Under the pieces are notes generated by a model. It was not told where the DNA came from and did not search any database. It was given only the letters and a program-made list of their open reading frames with translations. The position numbers and the translations under genes are program-made. A stretch of 61,284 nucleotides of DNA from a virus. The DNA lies in the IMG/VR virus record IMGVR_UViG_3300031857_000179, positions 1 to 61,284 of that record. The stretch is one strand, 5' to 3'. This document shows positions 12,995-29,749 of the stretch, piece by piece (position 1 is the stretch's first letter; every line of letters begins with the position of its first letter).

Positions 12995-13441
12995 TTAAAC
13001 TTTTTCTTGGAGTAATTGTGGTTTACTTACTGTATTGATAGCAATTTTAACCGGTTGTTTTTCAACTGGTACAATATTGATAAGTTTTACTGTAAGAACA
13101 CCATTATCCAAACTTGCACCATCAACTTGCACAGTATCAGCCAACGTTACAGTTTTCTTAAACGAACGTGTGCCAATACCACGATGTAGATAGTTTCTGG
13201 TGTCATCAAGGCCTTTTTCGCCTTTGATAGTCAAAGTATTTTTCAACACCTCAATAGTGATTTCACTTTCATTGAATCCAGCAACAGCAAGTTCAACGAG
13301 ATAATTATTATCATCAACTTTAACAATGTTGTGTGGAGGGAAAGTGGTAGGTTTTTCCGTTAGCATGGTATCAAATGTGTCAAGTAGTCGGTCAAAGCCA
13401 ACAACGGAAGGGTATAGATGTGTGAATCTTAATGTTGTCAT
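12995..13441 (-). CDS. hsp20: Small heat-shock protein Hsp20/IbpA-like
   Basis: A 148-aa protein with an alpha-crystallin domain: YLVELAVAGFNESEITIEV, NTLTIKGEK, YLHRGIGTRSFKKTVTLAD and GASLDNGVLTVKLI (the G-x-L motif). Hsp20 holds unfolding proteins and is a hallmark of aquatic T4-like phages. The ATG at 13441 follows an AAGGAG site; an upstream in-frame TTG would lie within that site. Between it and the upstream gene is a terminator-bearing, GC-rich non-coding segment, so hsp20 may be transcribed by read-through or attenuation. Confidence 0.93.
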   Translation of the reverse strand: MTTLRFTHLYPSVVGFDRLLDTFDTMLTEKPTTFPPHNIVKVDDNNYLVELAVAGFNESEITIEVLKNTLTIKGEKGLDDTRNYLHRGIGTRSFKKTVTLADTVQVDGASLDNGVLTVKLINIVPVEKQPVKIAINTVSKPQLLQEKV

Positions 13442-13465
13442 AAAGTTCTCCTTTAAAAGCAAGTT

Positions 13466-18697: not shown

Positions 18698-18979
18698 TTA
18701 GGCAAAAGTGCTAACACCCTTTGCACGTAGGGCTTTGATGCCTTCTGCAACCATGCGCTTGGTTGGCTGACCAAGGCGGTAGAAGGAGATTTTACGACCA
18801 TTAGCAAGAGTTTTGCTGTTAGTGTAAATTGCGTGTCCATCTTCACGCAATTCGTTGATACGTGCGGCAACATTGGTGATGCCGAAACGTGCCCGTGCCT
18901 GGGCAGTGGTGAAGGTATTGTAACCATCAGTCTTGCTCAAAGCGGCAAGCATTTTTTCTTTAGTAGTCATTTTAGACAT
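18698..18979 (-). CDS. Small helix-turn-helix protein (HTH_39-like)
   Basis: A 93-aa basic protein, MSKMTTKEKMLAALSKTDGY. TTAQARARFGITNVAARINE followed by LREDGHAIYTNSK and KISFYRLG is a winged-helix pattern of the HTH_39 type found in phages. It has its own promoter (19048-19076), a leader of about 60 bases and its own terminator, so it is a monocistronic and probably abundant early product. It is a good candidate for a phage transcription regulator; targets are unknown. The start at 18979 has a GGAG site. Confidence 0.8.
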   Translation of the reverse strand: MSKMTTKEKMLAALSKTDGYNTFTTAQARARFGITNVAARINELREDGHAIYTNSKTLANGRKISFYRLGQPTKRMVAEGIKALRAKGVSTFA

Positions 18980-19047
18980 AATAAAACTCCGTAATAAAAC
19001 CACACTTTGGGAATACACTTGAGAGGTGGTCATTCTCAAGATTCATA

Positions 19048-19089
19048 ATTATAACAAACCACTAAGAGTAAGTCAATACTCTTAGTGGT
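19048..19089 (-). promoter_or_regulatory. Sigma-70 promoter with its -35 in a hairpin loop
   Basis: The minus strand reads TTGACT (19076-19071), 17 bases, TATAAT (19053-19048). The six bases of the -35 are exactly the loop between perfect 13-base arms ACCACTAAGAGTA and TACTCTTAGTGGT (19077-19089 and 19058-19070). The same hairpin lies 12 bases after the CobS-like stop codon and could terminate that transcript. Confidence 0.82.
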
Positions 19090-19100
19090 AAATGTATCAA

Positions 19101-20285
19101 TTAAAATGGTACTTCTTCATTATGTGAAGGTACATTCACTGTAATAGGATCTTCTTCTTTGGCTGGTGCATCAAGTTTGGTGTACAAATCAAGGAAAGAC
19201 ATTTTGGTATCGGTATCAAAACGATTCAGACACAAAGATACCGCTTTCATTCGGTCACCATGCACACCATATGTTTTGCAAATATGTACCAAACGGCGAG
19301 TGGAGATGATTTCATCAACACCACCTTCGGAGAATGTTTTGCGAATTACATCAGCCCAAGTAACAAGTTTTTCGGCAAATTCATCATCGGTACGACCAGC
19401 AGAGGTCAATTCTTTTTTGATGATTTTACGCTCAACTGCAACAGGAGGATATTCTTGTTCGTAGGTATTCAAGAAACGTTCCAAGAAGGCTTCGTTCAAT
19501 ACGTTGGTGAACATATAGCGACCATCTTCGGAGCCTTTACCTTTTGTATTGGCTGTAGCAACAATTGTAAAGCCTTCGCTAGGATATACAATCTCGCCTT
19601 TTTTCTTCAACATGAAAGGCTTACCCTCTAGTACCCGTTGCAAGCAGGACAAGTTTTGTGCGCCGTAATCAATTTCATCAATACACAAAACGGCACCTTG
19701 TCGTGCGGCGGTAGTAACAGGACCGTCACGCCATTCCATCTGACCGTTAATCAAAACAAAGTTGCCAAGCAAATCGCCTTCATCGGTTTCTGGTGTCATT
19801 GAGATACAAACGAATTTGCGTTTTGCTTTGGCACAGGCTTGTTCAACGGACATTGTTTTACCGTTGCCAGATTGACCAGTGATAAAGATGGGAAAGAATT
19901 GTTTGCTGTTTACGATAGCCAGCAAATCTTCATAGTTGCCAAAGGGCACATAATTTTTGTACACTTCTGGAACTAGATTTCCAGTCTCAAGGTCGGTAGA
20001 TACATTAGCAATTCGGTTTTGTGCAACAGGTGCAACCGGTGCAATTTCAGTTTTCTTCATAGGTAAAACTTGAGCAGATAAATCAACTGCGGAAACATTA
20101 GCAGTTGGTAGTTTATATAGCCCACGACCAGCACGATTTTCTGGATCTTTTGTGAACCATTGTGGATATTTTAGGTCGGCCTCATTACAAATTGCCCAGA
20201 TATCTTCAACATTCAAAGTTTTTTTACCAGTAGCCAGGGCTAAAGAAATAAACTTCTCACGGGCCGAAACATTCACTTTACGCAT
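19101..20285 (-). CDS. cobS-like: AAA+ ATPase, MoxR/CobS-like
   Basis: A 394-aa protein. FITGQSGNGKTMSVEQACA is Walker A, AVLCIDEIDYGAQNLSCLQ is Walker B, TIVATANTKGKG is sensor 1 and LNEAFLERFLNTY holds the arginine-finger region, all in MoxR/CobS style. The first 90 residues form a separate domain (NVEDIWAICNEADLKYPQWF). Related phage genes are annotated cobS, but cobalt chelatase activity needs CobN, not present here. MoxR ATPases work with VWA partners; the zincin-VWA gene lies directly upstream. It has its own consensus promoter. Confidence 0.88.
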   Translation of the reverse strand: MRKVNVSAREKFISLALATGKKTLNVEDIWAICNEADLKYPQWFTKDPENRAGRGLYKLPTANVSAVDLSAQVLPMKKTEIAPVAPVAQNRIANVSTDLETGNLVPEVYKNYVPFGNYEDLLAIVNSKQFFPIFITGQSGNGKTMSVEQACAKAKRKFVCISMTPETDEGDLLGNFVLINGQMEWRDGPVTTAARQGAVLCIDEIDYGAQNLSCLQRVLEGKPFMLKKKGEIVYPSEGFTIVATANTKGKGSEDGRYMFTNVLNEAFLERFLNTYEQEYPPVAVERKIIKKELTSAGRTDDEFAEKLVTWADVIRKTFSEGGVDEIISTRRLVHICKTYGVHGDRMKAVSLCLNRFDTDTKMSFLDLYTKLDAPAKEEDPITVNVPSHNEEVPF

Positions 20286-20319
20286 AATATAAACTCCATT
20301 TCAATCAATCAATACAATA

Positions 20320-20358
20320 ATTATAACAGGGAAACACCACCTTGTCAATAGGTGGTGT
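20320..20358 (-). promoter_or_regulatory. Consensus sigma-70 promoter with its -35 in a hairpin loop
   Basis: The minus strand reads TTGACA (20348-20343), 17 bases, TATAAT (20325-20320), a perfect consensus. Perfect 9-base arms ACACCACCT and AGGTGGTGT (20350-20358, 20334-20342) enclose a 7-base loop that contains the -35. It drives the AAA+ gene and may also end the upstream zincin-VWA transcript. Confidence 0.85.
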
Positions 20359-20368
20359 TGTAAAAATG

Positions 20369-22687
20369 TCACAAAGCAATCTCGCCAATGAAACGATTTA
20401 CCAAAACACGGCTTACTTGTTTCTTCTTATTCATTTTCATAAATGCATTCTTTAGTTTACCAGCAGTAACTGCACCATCAACATGTAAACTTTCGTTTTC
20501 AATGTCAAGGTCATCGCCGCCAGGAATAATAAAGAATTTATTGTACCCAGAATTTTTAGATTCTAGGAATCTTTCCGCTTTGATGATTTGTGCAAGTTGT
20601 TTAGTGGCTTCTTTTCTTTGGTAGTAAGAATCATTAGAATGACCCTCATAAACTTGGCGCAACGATTCACCTTTTTCGTTGATGTAACGGCGCTCAATGC
20701 CAGCACGGAGACCAGCACCAGTTCCAGCAATGAAGAAACCGATAATCTTAGAACCTGTAGTTTTGCGATACCAATTGAAAACTGATTGGCGCACAGGACA
20801 TTCATCATCCTCAACCATCAATTCTTCAAATTTATTTTTCGTATCACGCAAAACAAGATTGAATTGACCGTGACCAATACCTACCGTGCTAGAGTAAGAT
20901 TGACCTTTGTAATCTACACGCTCACCAATTATGGTGGTAATTCTGTCGGCATCACCATCGTGCATGATAACCGTGTTCACAATATCAAGATTGTTCACCT
21001 TGCGAAATTGCTCAACGAGCGGCTTCAAGGCAATCATTGCTTCGGTCATAGGAGTATTTGACAAATTCTCAGTCTTAGGTGTTGAAAATTTACGATTACC
21101 ACGATAACTATAACTACCAGCCAAAGCCATGATATTTTTAGAGCACCGGGTAAATTCACTCGCACTCATTTTTGAATTCAAATACTCACGCAAGAAAACA
21201 TCTGAGCCACTTAATTCGTGGAGGTTTTTGGTGAATGAACGATTATTTTCACGGCCGTGGTCAAGTTGAAAAGCACCGGTATCATTGCCAAAACCATAAA
21301 CAACAAAAGGAATATTCACTTTGCGGCAGAACATTGCGAGAACCAAAATTTGTTCCCATGATGATTCCATATTGTTTTGCATTGAACCCGAACGGTCAAG
21401 CAACAAAACTAAACCATGCGATTTGCCTTTTGGTACAAAGGTTGCTTTGCGGAAAATATTGTCATCAACTTGGTATTTGTAGATGCGGTTAACATCAATA
21501 TCACCAGTCTCAGAAATTTTCTGTTTGGAATATTTTGATGCGGCTTTACGCATTTCAAATTCTTTCGCAAGCAGAGAAATGTAACGGTCATTCCGATTTT
21601 TGAATTCACGGAGCAAAACATTCTGAGTATCTTTATATGAATCAAACCGGTCAGCCCAATACATTTCCATCAATTCATGTACCCGTTTGTATGGAGTAAG
21701 AATTTCAGAATAAATTGGAGTTGGCAAATTCACATACAAATATTCTTTGCATGATTTGTCCAACAATTGACCTTCGTTTTCACGGTACTTTTCATCAGTT
21801 TCGCAAACTGGTTCAAAATCTTCATCTTCACTGGTACTATTGTGTGATTCTTTATCACGGTTAATAGTATTGCTTTTCTCTGGTTGTTCTTCTGATTTTT
21901 CTTCCGAATCAGAATCTGATTCACCTTTGGATTCTGATTCATCTTCACCATCGGATGATTCTTTTTCAGTTTTGCCAGCTTGAGGTTGGCCATCTTCCTG
22001 ATTTTCTTCTTCATCATTGGAAGAATCATCATTGCTGTCCATGTCCGTTTCATAATCACCATCTTCATCATCATAGAATGAATTCAGTTGGCGAATTTTT
22101 TCTTGTTGCAATTCTTTTTGTTCGGTTTTTGAATAGTCAAAAATTGCTTCGGTAATACGGACAACATCTTCCCACGTTTCGCACGATTCAACATCGGCTA
22201 ACATTTTGGTTTCTTCATTGTTGAATTGAATGCCCAATGCAACACCGCCTTTAGTGTAAAGGTTCAAGCGGTCAATGAAAGGCAAAGCATTGACATTTCG
22301 GTACTTGATACCGAAAAAATCTTTTTCTAATAGTTGACCGTATGCTTTGACAAACGATTGGCGCAAGCCAGGGAAACGGCGTTTGACTTTTTTCTCAATG
22401 CGGGCATCTTCAACCACATTCAGGAAGTTTTTGAAATTTTTATCAAATTTGCCAGTGCCCATAACTGCATTGTGCCAACCTTCTTCTGGCGTTTCCAATG
22501 CGTGACCAACTTCATGCCCGGTCAGCAAATCATACATTTCGCCAGACATATCTTTCCAGACTGGAAGGGTAAGAACACGGTCTTTAAGATTAAAAGAAGC
22601 CGTGGATACTTTGCGGTGCTCAACGGTGAGGTTTTCGGTAGCCATCAACTTGGCTAATTGGGATTTGGATTCTTGGGTAAACTGCAT
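20369..22687 (-). CDS. cobT-like: Zincin-VWA protein, CobT-like
   Basis: A 772-aa protein with three parts. Near residue 58 HEVGHALETPEEGW gives the HExxH zinc motif and about 30 residues later VVEDARIEKKVKRRF can supply the third ligand, as in zincin proteases. Residues about 210-300 are a long Asp/Glu/Ser-rich linker as in CobT. From about residue 425, HGLVLLLDRSGSM gives the VWA MIDAS D-x-S-x-S, with later VIMHDGDADR. With the adjacent AAA+ protein it forms a chelatase-like or MoxR-VWA pair. The target is unknown; metal insertion or protein remodelling and cleavage are possible. Confidence 0.85.
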   Translation of the reverse strand: MQFTQESKSQLAKLMATENLTVEHRKVSTASFNLKDRVLTLPVWKDMSGEMYDLLTGHEVGHALETPEEGWHNAVMGTGKFDKNFKNFLNVVEDARIEKKVKRRFPGLRQSFVKAYGQLLEKDFFGIKYRNVNALPFIDRLNLYTKGGVALGIQFNNEETKMLADVESCETWEDVVRITEAIFDYSKTEQKELQQEKIRQLNSFYDDEDGDYETDMDSNDDSSNDEEENQEDGQPQAGKTEKESSDGEDESESKGESDSDSEEKSEEQPEKSNTINRDKESHNSTSEDEDFEPVCETDEKYRENEGQLLDKSCKEYLYVNLPTPIYSEILTPYKRVHELMEMYWADRFDSYKDTQNVLLREFKNRNDRYISLLAKEFEMRKAASKYSKQKISETGDIDVNRIYKYQVDDNIFRKATFVPKGKSHGLVLLLDRSGSMQNNMESSWEQILVLAMFCRKVNIPFVVYGFGNDTGAFQLDHGRENNRSFTKNLHELSGSDVFLREYLNSKMSASEFTRCSKNIMALAGSYSYRGNRKFSTPKTENLSNTPMTEAMIALKPLVEQFRKVNNLDIVNTVIMHDGDADRITTIIGERVDYKGQSYSSTVGIGHGQFNLVLRDTKNKFEELMVEDDECPVRQSVFNWYRKTTGSKIIGFFIAGTGAGLRAGIERRYINEKGESLRQVYEGHSNDSYYQRKEATKQLAQIIKAERFLESKNSGYNKFFIIPGGDDLDIENESLHVDGAVTAGKLKNAFMKMNKKKQVSRVLVNRFIGEIAL

Positions 22688-28686: not shown

Positions 28687-29250
28687 TTAAAGTTTGTCGG
28701 GTAATTGTTCGTCTAAAACTGTTTCTTCTAGGAATTTATCCAAGACTTTTAGTTTAGTTTTCTTCTTTTCATTCTTCTTTGCCTCAAATGTTTGAATGAA
28801 TTCGGAAAGATTGTCATACAAGACAAACTGTTTCATGTTACCTTCCGAATCTTCATACATTTCACCTTCATCAAGAAGACCAAACTGTTCGGTAGCTTTA
28901 TACTTAACATACAGTTGTTTCTTCTCTTTTTGAATGCGCCTCAGAAAAGCAAAGTATATGATTTGGGTAAAGTATGCGAATGGATTGGAAGACTTGATTG
29001 GATCAAAGTTCCGAAAATACATAATGCAATTCTCAATACCATCACATACCATTTCTTCTCGGAAAGAATACGATATAAAGTTTGGTTTGCGAGATAGATG
29101 GTTAGCAATTTTTAGGAAGCATTCGCCGATATAGTTTGGTACTATAGGATCATCCTTGCCCTCAGCTTTGGCTTCATCACATGCCGTTTTATAGTCTATC
29201 AATGCCTTCAAAAAATCGGCATTGTTAACATAGTGTTTTTGTTTCATCAT
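28687..29250 (-). CDS. 55: Late sigma factor gp55
   Basis: A 187-aa protein that directs host RNA polymerase to TATAAATA late promoters. YVNNADFLKALIDYKTACDE, SYSFREEMVCDGIENCIMYF and NFDPIKSSNPFAYFTQIIYF with FLRRIQKEKKQLYVKYK match T4 gp55 in order, covering the sigma region 2 equivalent. The hydrophobic-acidic clamp-binding tail of T4 is replaced by ETVLDEQLPDKL. Many TATAAATA-type sites in this window support its function. Two ATGs in tandem open the gene. Confidence 0.93.
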   Translation of the reverse strand: MMKQKHYVNNADFLKALIDYKTACDEAKAEGKDDPIVPNYIGECFLKIANHLSRKPNFISYSFREEMVCDGIENCIMYFRNFDPIKSSNPFAYFTQIIYFAFLRRIQKEKKQLYVKYKATEQFGLLDEGEMYEDSEGNMKQFVLYDNLSEFIQTFEAKKNEKKKTKLKVLDKFLEETVLDEQLPDKL

Positions 29251-29264
29251 TATTTCCTAAAATA

Positions 29265-29297
29265 ACACTTGACAGACGCCAGTGTCGTGCGTATAAT
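29265..29297 (+). promoter_or_regulatory. Perfect sigma-70 promoter on the plus strand
   Basis: TTGACA (29269-29274), exactly 17 bases, TATAAT (29292-29297), in the 67-base gap between gp55 and the Sm-like gene. It points right, against every gene in the window. Arms ACACT and AGTGT (29265-29269, 29281-29285) flank the -35. Transcripts would be antisense to the Sm-like gene and uvsW. No comparable minus-strand promoter is visible in the gap. Confidence 0.75.
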
Positions 29298-29317
29298 ACA
29301 CCCTGTGGGGTCTGCAA

Positions 29318-29749
29318 TTAATGTAATAAGTTCTTCTTTATGTGTTTGATTGAATCTTGTATCTGCTCAAACTCATCATCGTCACCCTCACCATCATCTT
29401 CTTCATACTCATCATCAGATTCTGTAAGCAATGCTTCATCAATAGCATCTGCATTCATCTTAATCATTTCATTACTATCTTCTACAGCACTCAGGTAGTA
29501 ATCAACAAGAGACTTCTTAGGTTCAATTATGGTAAGAACGCTTGTCTCATATAACTTAGCTGTATTCTCTCCAATCAATTCTAAAGGCAACCATGGTGCC
29601 ATCATCACCATAGATTTACCAGAACTGATTCTCTTAAAGAACAAACTCATAGGACTGTTCATTACAACCATTTTGCTTTCATCTATATGATACGAGGCTA
29701 TGATATCTTCGCCATCTTGTAATCTTAGAATTTTTATTTCGTTATGCAT
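29318..29749 (-). CDS. Sm-like phage protein with acidic tail
   Basis: A 143-aa protein. HNEIKILRLQDGEDIIASYH, MVVMNSPMSLFFKR, GKSMVMMAPWLPLE and ETSVLTIIEPKKSLVDYYLS match the Sm-like protein family of cyanophage origin; MMAPWLP is the most telling segment. The C-terminal 40 residues are very acidic (DDEYEEDDGEGDDDEFEQ). The phage role is not established. It follows uvsW with an 8-base overlap, the usual position in related phages. Confidence 0.8.
   Translation of the reverse strand: MHNEIKILRLQDGEDIIASYHIDESKMVVMNSPMSLFFKRISSGKSMVMMAPWLPLELIGENTAKLYETSVLTIIEPKKSLVDYYLSAVEDSNEMIKMNADAIDEALLTESDDEYEEDDGEGDDDEFEQIQDSIKHIKKNLLH

Follow-up and report, generated by a model that had tools for sequence, protein, structure and literature searches.

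The promoter-early stem-loop (PeSL) of T4-type phages was reportedly described by Arbiol et al. in 2010 and by Comeau et al. in 2014; its outline here follows papers that cite them (PMC4503421, PMC3950731), and the genomes of RB49, KVP40 and T4 were scanned as PeSL references. As we read them, several early promoters of RB49 carry a separate terminator stem upstream of the -35 box, and at positions 121,736 and 115,033 of this genome (NC_005066, minus strand) a 7-bp stem-loop makes up the whole 17-bp spacer, TTGACA-GGGGATC-GGT-GATCCCC-TATAAT, with one variant containing one G-U pair. A 5-bp stem in the promoter spacer (TTGACATTACCCTAGAAATAGGGTATTAT) occurs in Melnitz, an isolated OM43 phage that has a related winged helix-turn-helix (HTH) gene. 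None of the 93 TTGACW promoters found in RB49, KVP40 and T4 has a stem of at least 7 bp around the -35 box. PeSLs are composite promoter-terminator motifs of T4-type phages (cited in PMC4503421). In the haloarchaeal virus HGTV-1, a promoter box and an inverted repeat precede many ORFs, an arrangement that its authors compared with PeSLs (PMC3950731); the promoter there differs in being of the archaeal TATA-box type, and the likeness to the junctions treated here is one of description.

Gene junctions with a -35 box in a hairpin loop

Our study concerns two gene junctions, J1 and J2, in a stretch of 61,284 bases, hereafter the window, which is the whole IMG/VR virus record that was analysed. 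It comes from a T4-like phage of freshwater metagenomes and carries T4-type genes for the sliding clamp, the clamp loader, a cobS-like AAA+ protein and a cobT-like protein; by DNA, the closest named phage records are cyanophages, which match part of the cobS gene at 65% identity. J1 occupies the gap between the cobT-like and cobS-like genes and J2 the gap between the cobS-like and winged-HTH genes, and both junctions and their flanking genes are co-directional on the minus strand. The features are the following.

20369..22687, minus strand: cobT-like/peptidase gene (phrog_459), upstream of J1
20333..20359, minus strand: J1 stem-loop with 10-bp perfect arms and a 7-nt loop, ATTGACA; putative terminator
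20343..20348, minus strand: J1 -35 box TTGACA, within the J1 loop
20320..20325, minus strand: J1 -10 box TATAAT, extended (TG one base ahead), 17 bp from the -35 box; predicted promoter of the cobS-like gene
19101..20285, minus strand: cobS-like AAA+ gene (phrog_249, PF07728), between J1 and J2
19058..19089, minus strand: J2 stem-loop with 13/13 perfect arms and a loop that is exactly TTGACT; putative terminator, tail TTGTTATAAT
19071..19076, minus strand: J2 -35 box TTGACT, the entire J2 loop
19048..19053, minus strand: J2 -10 box TATAAT, extended (TG one base ahead), 17 bp from the -35 box; predicted promoter of the winged-HTH gene
18698..18979, minus strand: winged-HTH gene, 93 aa (PF14090, phrog_4973), downstream of J2

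The J1 hairpin reads AACACCACCT(ATTGACA)AGGTGGTGTT (20359-20333) and its stem starts 9 nt past the stop codon of the cobT-like gene, while the J2 hairpin reads ACCACTAAGAGTA(TTGACT)TACTCTTAGTGGT (19089-19058) and starts 11 nt past the stop codon of the cobS-like gene. As RNA, J2 folds with -22.9 kcal/mol (z -5.9) and J1 with -15.0 kcal/mol (z -3.1). The first-pass annotation had described J2 correctly, including its coordinates, its 13-base perfect arms enclosing exactly the -35 box and its TATAAT at 17 bp; for J1, the perfect arms, the TTGACA in the loop and the TATAAT at 17 bp all hold, but the stem has 10 bp and not 9. It was also right that the arms of J1 and J2 are unrelated to each other, so that the two sites share an architecture rather than a common operator. 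The U-tails in the window are weak (J1 TCCCTGTT; J2 TTGTTATAA), and a simple terminator scan of the window listed J2 and did not list J1. The early status of the two promoters is predicted from their sigma-70 consensus. A further full-consensus promoter, TTGACA-17-TATAAT, was observed at 29269 on the plus strand in the gap 29250-29318; it runs antisense to the minus-strand genes around it.

On the sequence evidence, we hold it very probable that each of the two junctions is a fused terminator-promoter between co-directional early genes and, in function, a compressed PeSL. The hairpin most likely acts as RNA, as an intrinsic terminator or a 3'-end stabiliser, with the -35 box fitted into its loop; termination of the polymerase at the stems and initiation at the promoters is what we infer. 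The RNA of the upstream gene would fold into the hairpin a few nucleotides past its stop codon, and this would release RNA polymerase or at least shield the 3' end, while the same ~40 bp, as DNA, would serve the next gene as a strong sigma-70 promoter of the extended -10 type. Terminator and promoter can share bases because TTGACA is usable as a hairpin loop and the U-tail fits into the 17-bp spacer before TGnTATAAT. In such a case, phage regulatory DNA would be compressible to the point where ~40 bp end one transcript when read as RNA and start the following one when read as DNA, with both readings maintained through large sequence change. More speculatively, the fused layout would leave the terminated polymerase on the next promoter; in single-molecule work, intrinsic termination often left the polymerase on the DNA, where it can start again close by and in either direction (PMC6978322).

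The comparison with known systems indicates that J1 and J2 are a compact version of the PeSL and not a new kind of promoter. As in PeSLs, a terminator-type stem-loop and a strong predicted sigma-70 early promoter share a short gap between co-directional phage genes, and the promoter side, judged from sequence only, is complete (TTGACA or TTGACT, 17 bp, TATAAT, extended -10). The difference is that the stem overlaps the promoter rather than preceding it, so that the -35 box is the hairpin loop at J1 and J2, whereas RB49 and the relative G007 have the form with a separate stem. Since the stems of RB49 and Melnitz lie upstream of the -35 box or in the spacer, the window sites are the most compressed of the series. 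Repeated similar copies, which mediate gene shuffling in hyperplastic regions in the case of PeSLs, were not found here, the arms of J1 and J2 being unrelated and the J2 core being tied to one junction. The two sites would thus work like a PeSL with no sign of cassette shuffling, the cobS and winged-HTH neighbours being conserved. A mobile cassette was likewise considered and rejected: in a pattern scan of IMG/VR, the J2 core was found solely at its own junction, in 50 contigs, downstream of cobS in 50/50 and followed by a recognisable winged-HTH gene in 49/50. Our literature searches returned no description of a terminator loop that contains a -35 box; as evidence of absence, this is weak.

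About 16 similar promoters, TTGAC(A/T)-N16-17-TATAATGG, were observed in a dense array at ~67,700-97,200 of the uncultivated relative G007 (L137-L138); most of them follow a short stem of the TGTTGT...ACAACA type, and the array resembles a classic PeSL hyperplastic region.

Evidence for selection on the transcript of the upstream gene

Relatives were collected from IMG/VR in four protein scans that used cobS-like sequences as queries; these gave 188 sequences including the window, with 66 distinct J1 and 68 distinct J2 junctions. Among them, compensatory changes in the arms occur while the -35 box remains in the loop. In the alignment of the 11 distinct J2 sequences that keep the register of the window, 91.6% of the cells are paired, whereas sliding one arm lowers this to 36-50%; two-sided changes affect 4 pairs in 17 cells (shuffled mean 4.9 cells, 0/500), and the six inner pairs are invariant. 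The departures from Watson-Crick pairing were counted in the 20 distinct J1 and 23 distinct J2 hairpins that surround the -35 box, using a hairpin parser that gave G-U and A-C equal score. On the sense strand, 32 of these cells are G-U and 7 are A-C (binomial p 7e-5, kinship ignored). Had the palindrome been selected as DNA, no distinction between G-T and A-C mismatches would be expected, since each appears as the other on the complementary strand. The tails are also directional: in 20 distinct hairpins, the 5 nt after the stem contain a mean of 2.95 U's on the sense side and 1.05 on the other. The excess of G-U over A-C and the sense-side U's together indicate that the selected molecule is the RNA of the upstream gene, and, as the stems start 9-11 nt past stop codons, they are most naturally read as intrinsic terminators or as stabilisers of the 3' end.

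Terminators with a full U-tract stand at the corresponding junctions of several relatives, for example AAACACCACT(TGCCTG)AGTGGTGTTTTTTTTGTATAAT and GCACAGAGTA(TTGACT)TACTCTGTGCTTTTTGCTATGAT; complete terminators occupy the same place in L022, L044 and L023, as well as in L083 and L251, which have five to seven U's. Together with the covariation, the G-U bias, the directional tail and the distance of the stems from the stop codons, these classic terminators support the proposal, made from the window alone, that the upstream gene's terminator has been combined with the promoter of the gene that follows. In comparison with an ordinary intrinsic terminator, J1 and J2 have the 10-13 bp stem past a stop codon, the sense-side U enrichment and the RNA-level covariation; they differ in that their loop holds a conserved promoter element and that the U-tract, in the window, is shortened by the -10 region. 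A milder version, which overlaps the fused terminator-promoter, is that the stem protects the 3' end or marks it for processing and does not terminate efficiently, so that most polymerases read through and the promoter adds to their output. We regard it as possible though unlikely: the weak U-tails of the window and the close spacing of co-directional genes speak for it and RNA-level selection fits it equally, but the strong U-tracts at the same place in several relatives and the directionality of the tails do not favour it.

The position of the stem relative to the promoter varies among the relatives. In counts uncorrected for phylogeny, the -35 box lies in the loop in 27/66 distinct J1 and 30/68 distinct J2 junctions, and 7/66 and 8/68, respectively, have it overlapping an arm; a strong stem lies entirely upstream of the -35 box in 19/66 and 4/68, and a promoter is present with no strong stem in 13/66 and 20/68. 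A recognised promoter is missing in 6/68 distinct J2 junctions. The 20 distinct J2 junctions that keep the promoter with no strong stem imply that the hairpin is dispensable in some phages. The stem is also preserved in other registers, such as GCCAGAATGGT(TGACAG)ACCATTCTGGC, CAGGACCTAT(TGACTTG)ATAGGTCCTG and ACCTGAGAACCT(ATTGACA)AGGTTCTCAGGT, and across relatives the register shifts freely and the loop size ranges from 3 to 9. The relatives with a hairpin upstream of or around the -35 box form a natural series for tests of the coupling between termination and re-initiation.

This variation bears directly on a structure-dependent promoter, the other possibility raised in the first-pass annotation, in which cruciform extrusion or the reading of single-stranded DNA would show the -35 loop to sigma. 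The J2 loop is exactly the -35 box and the box lies in or near a loop in many relatives, as this explanation would have it; fixed geometry and DNA-level selection are nevertheless not what was found. Loop and register vary, in other clades the stem precedes the -35 box or is missing from consensus promoters, the boxes and the 17 bp between them are optimal for duplex DNA as they stand, and a DNA structure is strand-symmetric, yet the departures in the sense RNA are G-U by 32 to 7. We consequently judge this possibility highly improbable.

Palindromes over -35 boxes are typical operators, and the gene that immediately follows J2 encodes a winged-HTH protein (PF14090), so that a repressor, perhaps this protein itself, could be imagined to bind the arms and block the -35 box. 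This too would be very surprising. Conserved half-sites with fixed spacing were not observed: the arms change wholesale among close relatives that retain the gene, the loop length and hence the half-site spacing varies, the arms of J1 and J2 are unrelated, and the G-U bias indicates RNA.

Comparison with shuffled DNA

In the window, 2 of the 13 TTGACW sites with a -10 box sit in the loop of a stem of at least 10 bp, whereas none of the 94 TTGACW sites lacking a -10 box reaches a 7-bp stem; a stem of 8 bp is reached by 0 of the 204 promoter-like sites in 100 copies of the window generated with a first-order Markov model. The comparison with shuffled DNA that had been proposed as a check of these hairpins thus comes out in favour of an excess at promoters (2/13 against 0/204). 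A third case was identified at another gene junction of a sister genome (G001:11288), where GCCATCTG(GTTGA)CAGATGGC precedes TATAAT, and G002 carries a hairpin of this type with one U-G pair. Short AT-rich gaps can accommodate both elements anyway, but a chance coincidence of terminator and promoter in a small gap has a negligible probability given the 0/204 in shuffles, the two sites in one window, the third in a sister genome, the long-term maintenance of the stem through compensation and the restriction of the window's -35-in-loop stems to TTGACW sites that have a -10 box.

A candidate pseudoknot in the leader of the winged-HTH gene

Special attention was given to the J2 leader, whose order is CTTGAGA-ATG-ACCAC-C-TCTCAAG-N14-GTGGT, followed by GGAG and the start codon at 18979. 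Its features are the following.

18999..19040, minus strand: candidate H-type pseudoknot; stem 1 19040-19034/19024-19018, CTTGAGA/TCTCAAG; stem 2 19030-19026/19003-18999, ACCAC/GTGGT
18987..18990, minus strand: winged-HTH Shine-Dalgarno sequence GGAG, 8 nt past the pseudoknot and 7 nt ahead of the ATG

The J2 transcript is predicted to start at about 19043-19041, and the pseudoknot should begin 1-3 nt later. The H-type fold is kept in nearly all relatives, among them L008-L083, L200, L240, L251 and L298. In an alignment of 26 distinct sequences, 96.2% of the cells pair, against 28-44% when slid, and two-sided changes are found at 10/12 pairs in 42 cells (shuffled mean 10.5 cells, 0/500), including all six pairs of stem 2. 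Because MAFFT split stem 2, the arms were excised and aligned without their linkers, and the registers of bulged or shifted members were set by hand. It is important to note that a looser, unanchored pseudoknot scan is unspecific, as 206/680 shuffles pass it, against 58/68 real junctions, and 10 Markov windows contain 7 passing sites; the evidence for the pseudoknot is therefore the anchored pair count. A search of Rfam gave no match for the leader, with only tRNA at the gathering threshold and only chance-level leader matches at a relaxed one.

The J2 transcript thus probably opens with an H-type pseudoknot that covaries strongly and lies shortly before the ribosome-binding site of the winged-HTH gene. 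We consider this pseudoknot a likely new cis-regulatory RNA of these T4-like phages, and its position suggests control of the winged-HTH gene; backed by two-sided changes in 10/12 pairs and absent from Rfam, it is a more novel lead than the fused hairpin. According to a 2010 review, the T4 gene 32 pseudoknot is possibly the only viral one in translational autoregulation (PMC3014915). The J2 structure resembles the gene 32 leader pseudoknot of T4, T2 and RB69 (PMC3014915) in being H-type and in its place in the leader of a T4-type phage gene whose product binds nucleic acid; it differs in belonging to another gene and in ending 8 nt before the Shine-Dalgarno sequence, whereas that of gene 32 ends ~67 nt before the start codon. 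A bolder proposal, which we find doubtful, is that J2 is a three-in-one cassette in which the released polymerase would restart at the next promoter and the covarying pseudoknot would control winged-HTH translation, possibly by autoregulation, making it a second phage pseudoknot of the gene 32 type and a new RNA family.

A second pseudoknot-like leader, AAGGTA...TGCCTT with AAGTTA/TAACTT, was observed at 13452 of the window (minus strand), upstream of the ORF 12995-13441, and at G001:102301; its score is near chance level, and it may be a terminator. The closest isolate homologue of the winged-HTH protein, with 50% identity, is encoded by Stenotrophomonas phage DLP_6 (L268, 82033-82272).
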